A stretch of DNA of 40,387 nt, from assembly GCA_937921555.1 (NCBI GenBank), contig CAKZUV010000047.1, positions 1 to 40,387 of the forward strand, given 5' to 3'. A program made the translations under genes and the position numbers. This DNA is from an uncultured Saprospiraceae bacterium. GTDB taxonomy: Bacteria > Bacteroidota > Bacteroidia > Chitinophagales > Saprospiraceae. Positions within the stretch are counted from its first letter, which is position 1. Every line of letters starts with the position of its first letter. Shown here piece after piece: positions 37,269 through 40,387 of this stretch. The notes under the pieces were generated by a model. That model saw only the letters and a program-made list of their open reading frames with translations, searched no databases and was not told where the DNA came from.

Positions 37269-38504
37269 CTAAGTTGAAACATCTGCCTCCAGTTCCAGCA
37301 CAGTAATCTCCGGCAAAATCCCTACCCTGCCCGGATATCCCAGAAAGCCAAAACCCCGGTTGACGTATAAATACTGATTGGCCTGTTGGTACAGCCCCGC
37401 CCAGTATTTATAAAAATATTGCACTGGACTCCATTTCCAGTTAAAAATTTCAACACCAAATTGCCCTCCGTGGGTATGACCACTCAGGGTCAGCTCGATA
37501 CCGGGATATTCGGTGATAATTTCCGCAGACCAATGACTGGGATCGTGGGACAAACATACCCGAAGGTCCGCTCCGTGAGTCCCCAAACTAGCCTTTTTGA
37601 GATCTCCGTATCTGGAAAACCGTCGGTTGGCCGAAAAATTTTCTACCCCGATAATCGCTACCTCAGCACCCCGGATATTGATGATTTCGTTTTCATTATT
37701 TAATAAATTCCAGCCAAGTGCCTGATGTGCGGCTTCCAGTGCGGACCGGTTTTCGGATTTAGCTGCGGCGCTCGGCCAGCGGGCATAATCTCCGTAGTCG
37801 TGGTTGCCCATGATCGAATATACGCCATATTTTGCTTTTATTTTTGAAAAAACGGATACAAATGGTTCTACTTCCCGGGCCACGGTATTCACCAGATCTC
37901 CGGTAAAAAAGAATAAATCGGGTGCCTCAGCTATAATTTTTTTGACACCCACCTTCACCGGTTCAATGGCCGTAAAACTTCCCGCGTGAATATCCGAAAT
38001 CTGAACGATCTTCAGACCATTAAGCTGGGCCGGTAAACCCGGAATTTTTACTTTTTCACGAAAAATCCGATAGCGATATTTATTGCGCAGCATTCCGTAG
38101 GTAAGCAGCACGACGGGAATGATTCCAATGAGTACTGAAATAAAAACAATTGCCTCGGGCCGGGTACCAGCCGTAAAATTATCACTGATAAAATATCCAA
38201 TCCAGCCAATTACCAGCCAAATCAAGCTCCCCAGCAAAAGACTGATTACCGTAAGTATTTTCCCCAGATATAAAATAAGTGCAAAGCTGCCAGCCGTTCG
38301 CCAGTGGTGAGACAATGGTTTTTCCTTTCGGGCAATATTGTAAAAACAGACGATTAATAAAAACAGGAGCAGGGGAATCAACCAATAGGTAACTAAAAAT
38401 ACCGTCACGCTCACCGAATTACTGGTAGAAAACAACGAAAGAATTTCCCGGAAAATGTAGAAATCCAGTAAAAAAATAATCCCCATCAATAACAATATTC
38501 GCAT
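37269..38504 (-). CDS. Membrane metallophosphoesterase
   Basis: The 411-residue protein has about four membrane segments in its first ~140 residues and then a calcineurin-type phosphoesterase domain: SDIHAGSF (Asp171, His173), TGDLVN, GNHDYGDY (His and Asp), CLSHDPSHW and LSGHTHGGQFG. These bind two metals. Relatives cleave phosphate esters such as UDP-diacylglucosamine or lipid-linked substrates at the membrane; the substrate is not clear here. A MITE-like element lies 15 bp upstream of the start codon and may affect expression. Confidence 0.9.
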   Translation of the reverse strand: MRILLLMGIIFLLDFYIFREILSLFSTSNSVSVTVFLVTYWLIPLLLFLLIVCFYNIARKEKPLSHHWRTAGSFALILYLGKILTVISLLLGSLIWLVIGWIGYFISDNFTAGTRPEAIVFISVLIGIIPVVLLTYGMLRNKYRYRIFREKVKIPGLPAQLNGLKIVQISDIHAGSFTAIEPVKVGVKKIIAEAPDLFFFTGDLVNTVAREVEPFVSVFSKIKAKYGVYSIMGNHDYGDYARWPSAAAKSENRSALEAAHQALGWNLLNNENEIINIRGAEVAIIGVENFSANRRFSRYGDLKKASLGTHGADLRVCLSHDPSHWSAEIITEYPGIELTLSGHTHGGQFGVEIFNWKWSPVQYFYKYWAGLYQQANQYLYVNRGFGFLGYPGRVGILPEITVLELEADVST

Positions 38505-38519
38505 ATTTTCTCTATTTCA

Positions 38520-38602
38520 CACACTACTGGACATTTCTCCCATTTTCTACCTCCCTGCCTCTTAAAGGAGTAGCTCCAAACCCGCAAATGTCCAGTAGTG
38601 TG
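38520..38602. mobile_element. MITE-like element (83 bp) with 9-bp target duplication
   Basis: CACACTACTGGACATTT (38520-38536) and its exact reverse complement (38586-38602) form perfect 17-bp terminal inverted repeats. On both sides lies TCTATTTCA (38511-38519 and 38603-38611), a perfect 9-bp direct repeat. This is the structure left by transposition of a small element. The 49-bp middle has no open frame. No full insertion sequence with these ends is in the window, so the family cannot be named. It lies 15 bp upstream of the metallophosphoesterase start. Confidence 0.85.
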
Positions 38603-38806
38603 TCTATTTCATTAAAAACAAACATAGTCCGCATCGGAATTTTGTTGGTAACTTTGCGGGACGGGATGGATGGTTTTATTCCATTTATATACACTTTTAT
38701 AGAACACCCCCGACCGGGTGCATGTTTAGATTTACAATAACTGAAAAAATAATATTTTAAACATACGCTGAAAGAATTTAGCGCTTGTCCAAATCTTTAT
38801 TTGTCT

Positions 38807-40387
38807 ATGAGAATTTCTGCCTTTATCTTTTTCATTGTTTCTTTAGGATTATTTGTCACTTGTCAAACCAGTAATTATCTGCCGGTTGATTATCATAAAA
38901 AAACTTTTACCGAGGCAGATACCCTGCGGGGCCAGCTTTCTCCGGCAAGAACCTGCTATGATGTCCGTTTTTATGATCTCAAAGTAGCGGTCGATCCTGC
39001 GGATAGAACGATCTCAGGGGAGGTAGATATTGTTTTTGAGGCCATCCGGGACTTTAAATTATTGCAAATAGACCTGTTCGAAAATCTCCAAATCGACAGT
39101 ATTATTTACCACGGCAATCCGGTTAACTATCATCGTCAGTATAATGCGGTTTTTGTGCAGTTTCCAACAATCAAAAAAGGAGCGACGGATCAGTTTACCG
39201 TATATTATCAGGGTGCTCCGGTGGTTTCCAGAAATCCTCCCTGGTCGGGCGGTTTTGTCTGGACCAAAGATAGGCGGGGAACTGACTGGATAACGGTCGC
39301 CTGCGAAGGAGACGGGGCCAGTTTGTGGTGGCCCAATAAAGATCATCTTTCGGACGAACCGGACAGTATGATGATCCGCATCACCGTTCCCGAGCCACTT
39401 TTTTGCGTAGCCAATGGCAACCTGAAGGGTATTTATCCGGTAGATGGCAAGCGCCGTCGCTTTGACTGGCAGGTTTCTTATCCGATTAATAATTACAATG
39501 TGACGGTCAATATCGGGGATTATGTGCACTTTTCGGAAACCTACCAGGCGGAAGACCAGACGACTATGCCACTGGATTATTATGTGCTTTCTTATAATCT
39601 GGATATTGCCAAAGATCATTTTCAGCAAGTACCGGGTATCCTGAAATGTTTTGAAGATTTACTGGGAAAATATCCTTTCTGGGAAGACGGTTACGGGTTG
39701 GTGGAAACGCCGTACCTGGGTATGGAACACCAGGGCGCGATTGCTTACGGCAACCAGTATATGCGCGGCTACCAAGGAGGTATGATTCCTGCGGATATGG
39801 ACTGGGATTATATCATCGTACACGAATCGGGACACGAATATTTTGGGAATAGCCTCAGTTGTAATGACCACGCAGAAATGTGGATTCACGAATCCTTCAC
39901 GACTTATCTGGAGGCACTTTACGTGGAATGTACGACGGGTTACGAGGATTATTTGCGGTATCTGCAGGTATTCCGCAGCAGGCAATATATCAAAAACAGG
40001 ATGCCCATTGTGGGTCCGCTGGAGGTCAACTACACAGATTTCGGGTCCAGTGATCATTATTTTAAAGGTTCGTGGGTGCTGCATACGATTCGCCACGCCA
40101 TTGGCGACGACGAACTTTGGTTTCGGCTTTTCCACGATTTTTACCAGTATTTTTCGATAAATCACACAGATACAGAAACGGTGATTGCCTGGTTTGACAA
40201 GCGAACGGATTTGAAGCTGACTCCTGTTTTCCGGCAGTATCTTTATCATCCAGCCATTCCCAAATTGGTGTATTCGCTGGCAACAAAAGGCGATGAAGTA
40301 ATTATGACGCACCAGTGGATTACGGATGAAACGGATTTTGAAATGCCTTTGCTGGTGGGAAATCCCAATAATTACCAGCGTATCACC
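38807..40387 (+). CDS. M1-family aminopeptidase lipoprotein (5' part, runs off the window)
   Basis: The first 527 codons are present. The signal (LGLFVTC, Cys19) is a weak lipobox, so a lipoprotein is likely. The catalytic set of M1 peptidases is seen: the exopeptidase-type segment GMEHQG (Glu307; the classical form is GAMEN), and HESGHEYFGNSL (His339, Glu340, His343) followed by the third zinc ligand Glu362 in WIHES, giving HExxH-X18-E. It would release N-terminal residues from peptides in the envelope. The C-terminal part is outside the window. The 302-bp gap upstream holds the MITE-like element and no other gene; TAACTTTG near 38652-38659 fits the Bacteroidota -7 box. Confidence 0.92.
   Translation, partial: MRISAFIFFIVSLGLFVTCQTSNYLPVDYHKKTFTEADTLRGQLSPARTCYDVRFYDLKVAVDPADRTISGEVDIVFEAIRDFKLLQIDLFENLQIDSIIYHGNPVNYHRQYNAVFVQFPTIKKGATDQFTVYYQGAPVVSRNPPWSGGFVWTKDRRGTDWITVACEGDGASLWWPNKDHLSDEPDSMMIRITVPEPLFCVANGNLKGIYPVDGKRRRFDWQVSYPINNYNVTVNIGDYVHFSETYQAEDQTTMPLDYYVLSYNLDIAKDHFQQVPGILKCFEDLLGKYPFWEDGYGLVETPYLGMEHQGAIAYGNQYMRGYQGGMIPADMDWDYIIVHESGHEYFGNSLSCNDHAEMWIHESFTTYLEALYVECTTGYEDYLRYLQVFRSRQYIKNRMPIVGPLEVNYTDFGSSDHYFKGSWVLHTIRHAIGDDELWFRLFHDFYQYFSINHTDTETVIAWFDKRTDLKLTPVFRQYLYHPAIPKLVYSLATKGDEVIMTHQWITDETDFEMPLLVGNPNNYQRIT

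Follow-up and report, generated by a model that had tools for sequence, protein, structure and literature searches.

The window, by which we mean the whole analysed stretch of 40,387 nucleotides from an uncultured Saprospiraceae bacterium, contains a metallophosphoesterase gene and a divergently oriented Peptidase M1-like gene (Table 1). Between them lies an 83-bp element at positions 38520–38602, and reading of the sequence revealed that both its 17-bp terminal inverted repeats are perfect. A search of the window for this end at up to three mismatches returned exactly the two ends of the element, compared to a mean of 0.08 in shuffled windows; one of 100 shuffles reached two matches. The element is separated by 15 bp, and the duplication flanking it by 6 bp, from the start codon of the metallophosphoesterase gene, whose open reading frame starts at 38504 on the minus strand. 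A sequence-only reading of this DNA had described an 83-bp element with perfect 17-bp ends and a perfect 9-bp target duplication, 15 bp upstream of the metallophosphoesterase start, and in each of these points it was exact.

MITEs are typically shorter than 500 bp, are bounded by terminal inverted repeats of about 4–30 bp and lack a transposase, according to the definition in the consulted part of PMC10969869. The element agrees with this definition in size, in its inverted repeats and in the absence of a transposase, which 83 bp are far too short to encode. It is a genuine MITE.

Table 1. Features of the MITE and of its surroundings, in window positions
Feature	Positions	Strand	Basis
Peptidase M1-like gene, divergent neighbour, runs off the contig end	38807–40387	+	PF01433, E 1.4e-14; synteny with G005
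TATGTTTG, a 6/6 match to TANNTTTG, which we take to be the Bacteroidota -7 box consensus; points to the metallophosphoesterase gene	38619–38626	-	weak
Target-site duplication TCTATTTCA, 9 bp, right copy	38603–38611		sequence
Right 17-bp terminal inverted repeat, perfect inverse of CACACTACTGGACATTT	38586–38602	-	exact match
MITE interior, 49 bp, non-coding	38537–38585		shared with genus copies; no match to interiors of seven full-length insertion sequences (ISs)
Left 17-bp terminal inverted repeat CACACTACTGGACATTT	38520–38536	+	exact match; same as both ends of the full-length IS in L131/L152
Target-site duplication TCTATTTCA, 9 bp, left copy	38511–38519		sequence; 9 bp is the family-wide duplication length
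Metallophosphoesterase gene, 411 aa	37269–38504	-	PF00149, E 9.1e-15; MITE probably in its leader

Copies of the MITE and their target duplications

The genome from which the window comes (G000) is a draft assembly of 5.44 Mb in 403 contigs. It contains 45 matches to the 17-bp end at up to two mismatches, compared to one match for a reversed control pattern; the inverted repeat is thus found far beyond chance. A 101-bp query gave 29 blastn matches in the same genome, the best three besides the query itself being 97, 99 and 98% identical. The family is carried by six of the seven genomes of the genus, the own genome counted. Together with the matches in the own genome, this bears out the expectation that further copies would be present in the genome and its relatives. 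A recent insertion had also been proposed, and it is supported by the perfect ends, the perfect duplication and the existence of a second copy that is 99% identical.

When 40 genomes were searched, all six with a match (own included) belonged to the window's genus. The full 83 bp were found at E 1e-6 or better in seven of 398 Saprospiraceae genomes, six in the genus and one elsewhere; the latter contains two matches with 77–79% identity. Genome G004 has 111 ends at up to one mismatch and holds versions of the MITE of both 83 bp and 92 bp. The end itself is spread more widely. An end scan at up to one mismatch detected it in 76 of the 398 genomes, with four or more matches in 45 of them by our own reading of the scan table. 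In a named sequence collection the exact window end occurs in at least 114 stretches. Among the matches listed, 59 of 80 records are titled Saprospiraceae, Saprospirales, Lewinella, Lewinellaceae, Neolewinella or Phaeodactylibacter, and the remaining ones are mostly less precisely named Bacteroidota.

Several unusual occurrences were observed. At L022 (G000, contig C54, 5629–5755) a copy of the MITE adjoins another that is partial and has the same orientation, which may reflect nested or tandem insertion. L031 (G000, contig C69, 165–456) is a 292-bp stretch bounded by the family ends, in which the two MITE arms enclose a longer middle; a segment may have been captured by, or later inserted into, a MITE here. 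Neolewinella antarctica DSM 105096 has a MITE of 184 bp that is uniform across seven loci (L172, L178, L197, L205, L226, L228 and L242), shares these ends and is flanked by duplications of 8–9 of 9 bases. The same 17-bp end is also present in two MAGs labelled as other phyla, Thermoanaerobaculia (L195) and Calditrichaeota (L177), by contamination or horizontal transfer. Phage records gave no match to the MITE. Nine single ends were found on viral contigs; one of them has a partner with four mismatches at a distance of 1.87 kb and lacks a matching duplication. The transposase described below is on none of these contigs, and we take the ends to be chance matches.

The family inserts by a 9-bp staggered cut. 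Among 66 candidate end pairs from the genus, in which spurious pairings were left, a perfect 9-bp repeat flanks 21 and a repeat with at least eight of nine identical bases flanks 29, while all other duplication lengths from 5 to 13 summed gave two perfect repeats. After flanks were swapped between pairs, at least eight of nine bases agreed in 5 of 2000 draws. When the set was widened to many genera, the distinct nearest pairs numbered 139; the 9-bp duplication is perfect in 61 of them and has at least eight of nine bases in agreement in 85. The first base of the 61 perfect duplications, both strands pooled, is G in 49%, compared to 21% in nearby flank.

The sequence-only reading had also called for a comparison with empty sites. 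Sixteen own-genome copies were prepared as joined flanks, and three of them were searched in the genus genomes; two sites were found empty. For the copy on contig C62, which has a 9/9 duplication, one continuous match in G001 runs across the junction of the joined flanks: here two convergent neighbours are present, the element is absent and there is a single TAATCAG stretch. The copy on contig C8, whose own duplication has decayed (2/9 in register), likewise gave one continuous match, in G005, where the element is absent and the spacer more diverged. G001 keeps both neighbours of the C8 site; its spacer exceeds that of the joined query by about 111 bases, and no end at up to five mismatches was detected in the fetched stretch of this locus. 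No continuous match across the joined flanks of the third copy, on contig C52, was found in the genus genomes. The C52 flanks are 3–7 bases apart in G001, G002, G003, G004 and G006 and 270 apart in G005, compared to about 95–99 in the joined query, and since this spacing is unlike that of the query, the base-level comparison fails at the site.

At the window site, the whole metallophosphoesterase gene is kept only in G005 (74% identical protein), with the same divergent neighbour; G003 has a 73-residue fragment matching the metallophosphoesterase. The G005 spacer is too diverged to align, and the G005 genome contains no MITE match. Many further copies and the empty sites of two other copies thus uphold the reading of the window element as a MITE that made a 9-bp target duplication.

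Insertion sequences with matching ends

Full-length ISs of 1.19–1.26 kb with the same or nearly the same ends as the MITE were found elsewhere in Saprospiraceae. Relatives of their transposase were found in 10 of the 398 genomes by a protein search at E 1e-60, and seven of these 10 are among the 45 genomes with four or more end matches. Two of the 76 end-bearing genomes, G199 and G145, have ends paired at a distance of about 1.19 kb. The G199 IS encodes an intact transposase of 372 aa at L131, 1090–2208, and both its ends are identical to the window's 17-bp end; its contig stops at the terminus, and ends of G199 elements are seen at contig edges. One end is identical to the window end and the other has T at position 3 in the ISs of G408 and G145, the reading frame of the latter being broken. 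The G393 IS has T at position 3 at one end and one other base changed at the other. The G347 IS has one mismatch at each end, and its ends begin with TA, not CA. The ends of the G408, G393 and G347 ISs are within one mismatch of CAYACTACTGGACATTT, the first 15 end bases of the G024 and G331 ISs are CATACTACTGGACAT, and relatives in G359 and G397 have end variants such as CACACCGCTATACATTT and TATACTGCTATACATGA. For the relative in G406, whose gene contains stops, one end with one mismatch was seen. A clean 9/9 duplication flanks the ISs of G393 and G024 and one G359 element, and a 10/10 duplication was found in G397; no clean 9-bp duplication was found at the ISs of G408, G331 and G145.

The G199 transposase matches PF01609 (E 4.5e-18, over the cut-off) and the NCBIfam IS4 model NF033591 (E 1.3e-42, with 146.1 bits against a curated cut-off of 152). 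Alignment of six of the putative driver transposases revealed invariant residues D100, D164-REY (DREY 164–167) and Y262-R265-E269-K276. Thus 63 and 104 residues separate D, D and E, and the motif is Y(2)R(3)E(6)K. In Table 1 of PMC2266710, subgroup IS4Sa is given a length of 1150–1750 bp, CA------T ends, a duplication of 8–10 bp and YREK. The putative driver ISs agree with the subgroup in length, in the CA------T end and in the duplication, which is seen at G393 and G024. By these features the transposases would be of the IS4 type (DDE, YREK, CA...T ends), fitting subgroup IS4Sa. IS1, IS4 and IS256 had been named as candidates from the duplication length, no choice between them being possible from the ends; IS4 is the one favoured by the profile matches, the ends and duplications, the DDE and YREK motifs and the IS4Sa table. 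On plasmids, relatives of the transposase were found at less than 60% identity only, and a PDB sequence search gave no useful match.

A full-length IS with the MITE ends, which the sequence-only reading had proposed to look for, is therefore found in other Saprospiraceae (G199) and was not found in the window's genus. The genus search covered PF01609-type transposases and relatives of the G199 protein. None of 21 PF01609 loci fetched from the seven genus genomes has an end within three mismatches of the MITE end. At 13 of these loci the IS's own ends were worked out, and the PF01609 transposases of the genus were rejected as parents. In the own genome, a draft of 403 contigs, no intact driver with matching ends was found. 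The only long relative of the G199 transposase there is 33% identical and has other ends and a 10-bp duplication (L065/L150, contig C65; ends TAAGGTACTATACACTTT, duplication TGAGCAACTT, a 411-codon transposase frame), and G001 contains a 53-residue partial match. Another own-genome IS, at L059 (contig C165, 973–2143), has 18-bp perfect ends TAGGTTGATTGCATCAAA, a 9-bp duplication TTTTGCCAT and a 367-codon PF01609 transposase frame. Single ends in G004 were considered as halves of a full IS and rejected: the 20 stretches are mostly MITEs with a decayed second end, and the few remaining ones are at a contig end or partnerless, none of them beside a recognised transposase. With no IS bearing these ends found in the genus, the driver would be lost, unassembled or visiting. 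Draft assemblies often break or lose insertion sequences, so its absence from the genus is only suggestive.

The interiors of the short elements were compared as well (elements of up to 450 bp with at least eight of nine duplication bases; blastn at E 1e-3, single linkage). The 83 elements fell into 17 interior clusters without detectable similarity between them, seven being single elements, a number that may be inflated as short interiors may be split too finely. Only one of the 83 interiors matches any of the seven full ISs, over 23 bases; the window MITE interior shows no match to, and no derivation from, any of them. Given this near-absence of matches, the MITEs do not appear to be deletion derivatives of these ISs. 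Because 17 interior clusters without detectable similarity lie within the same ends, MITEs seem to arise repeatedly around one 17-bp terminus.

Proposed origin of the MITE and alternatives

We hold with considerable confidence that the element is a non-autonomous MITE that was moved by the IS4-family (IS4Sa-like) DDE transposase of a separate IS and that is now probably a leader hairpin. The transposase, encoded by another element, an IS that shares the 17-bp ends, would bind those of the MITE and excise or copy it. Joining across a 9-bp staggered cut would give the TCTATTTCA duplication. For the window copy we infer that a transposase of the IS4 type very probably carried out this movement and that the driver has since been lost from, or was not assembled in, the own genome. 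The inserted MITE would form a stable hairpin inside the 5′ leader of the metallophosphoesterase mRNA.

The strongest alternative concerns the present effect of the MITE, which might instead bring or complete a promoter now driving the metallophosphoesterase gene. Its position 15 bp before the start codon would suit this role, and the consulted part of PMC10969869 reports sigma70-like promoters in several other MITEs of prokaryotes. Inside the MITE, on the minus strand from 38592, there is a 5/6 -7-like box with 3/4 -33-like boxes 20–22 bases upstream. This -7-like box is imperfect, however, and no sigma70-type promoter was found inside the MITE. Moreover, the 6/6 -7 box lies just outside the MITE, upstream of the gene, although it has no -33 box at the spacings tried. 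We consider the promoter explanation unlikely and think that a leader hairpin, the probable state of the MITE judging from its predicted fold and the motif matches, is the likelier of the two. If the outer -7 box belongs to the native promoter, a leader of roughly 16 bases became one of roughly 108 through the insertion. With 15 bases between it and the start codon, the hairpin would then more likely lower expression than raise it.

It could also be that an unrelated transposase, happening to accept the same ends, moved the MITE. This would agree with the lack of a matching IS among the PF01609-type transposases and G199 relatives searched in the genus. But the G199 IS has the MITE end, base for base, at both termini, and the G408 and G145 ISs have it at one terminus each; in G393 and G024 the duplications are of the same length too, with 9/9 bases matching. 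We regard a coincidence of this kind as quite improbable.

Even less probable is that the MITE is not a transposon but is retained for a function as an RNA or DNA hairpin, such as a REP- or terminator-like repeat. Its RNA folds at -30.5 or -34.8 kcal/mol, depending on the strand, far better than shuffled sequences (z -8.1 and -5.7). A simple ORF caller placed 16 of 19 classified own-genome copies between genes and one at a contig edge, while two overlap an ORF, one of them touching just its first 24 bases; the same caller leaves about 12% of the window non-coding. Thirty-three copies with at least seven of nine duplication bases were compared at the ends, and position 3 pairs T/T in 22, C/C in nine and is mixed in two, as a maintained stem might. 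On the other hand, this position looks like a subfamily difference, and we read it as marking two putative subfamilies. At the other 16 positions, 33 one-sided changes and one compensated change were found. With changes so one-sided, no selection on the stem is visible once the element has inserted, and a selected RNA hairpin was rejected on this ground. The 9-bp duplications also speak against a non-mobile repeat, and no terminator-like site was detected at 38400–38820. A chance palindrome, finally, is practically inconceivable in view of the window shuffles, the 101-bp blastn matches and the 9-bp duplications, and is refuted by the copies in the genome.

Beyond the IS4-driven origin of the window MITE, we tentatively suggest, at somewhat short of an even chance, that the 17-bp terminus is a shared 'public' substrate across Saprospiraceae. 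Scarce, possibly horizontally visiting IS4Sa-like elements would mobilise resident MITEs of unrelated interiors, and new families would be repeatedly born from little more than two ends and outlive the driver, with as many as about 150 ends in one genome. An abundant repeat of a large environmental bacterial family gains a likely driver class, a duplication length and a host range. Elements of 17 interior clusters on the same 17 bases provide a natural test of the minimal part of an IS that the transposase needs. Annotators of these genomes should expect to meet such elements in leaders and in intergenic stretches.

Comparison with known systems

No description of this MITE family was found in the part of the literature covered, on MITEs in Saprospiraceae/Lewinella, on IS4-type MITEs in Bacteroidetes or through 14-base pieces of the end. 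The only paper found to mention MITEs as well as Saprospiraceae is PMC12542641, whose MITEs, in the portion consulted, are on other contigs.

The closest known system is subgroup IS4Sa of the IS4 family as given in the consulted sections of De Palmenaer et al. 2008 (PMC2266710), which the putative driver resembles in its length of about 1190–1255 bp, in CA ends with T at position 9, in the 9-bp duplication where intact, in D/D/E spacing and in Y(2)R(3)E(6)K. In contrast to these ISs, the window MITE has no transposase and shares the 17-bp ends only. The MIC231 elements are non-autonomous and are moved by an IS4-family transposase, like the mode proposed for the window MITE; they are larger than it and carry genes. 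These mobile insertion cassettes of Bacillus cereus (IS231, IS4 family) appear in titles cited in PMC2266710, where, in the part consulted, subgroup IS231 is given duplications of 10–12 bp.

The MITEs of Porphyromonas gingivalis, in the excerpts of PMC4596501 available, are likewise Bacteroidota MITEs sharing ends with full ISs, and one of them, BrickBuilt, likewise has no transposase remnant. They differ in that their ends are common to IS5-family elements of the same species and in that BrickBuilt duplications are of variable length. The Correia elements of Neisseria, as covered in the consulted part of PMC10969869, are likewise short mobile repeats near genes, but they carry documented promoters and an IHF site, whereas no convincing promoter was found in the window MITE.
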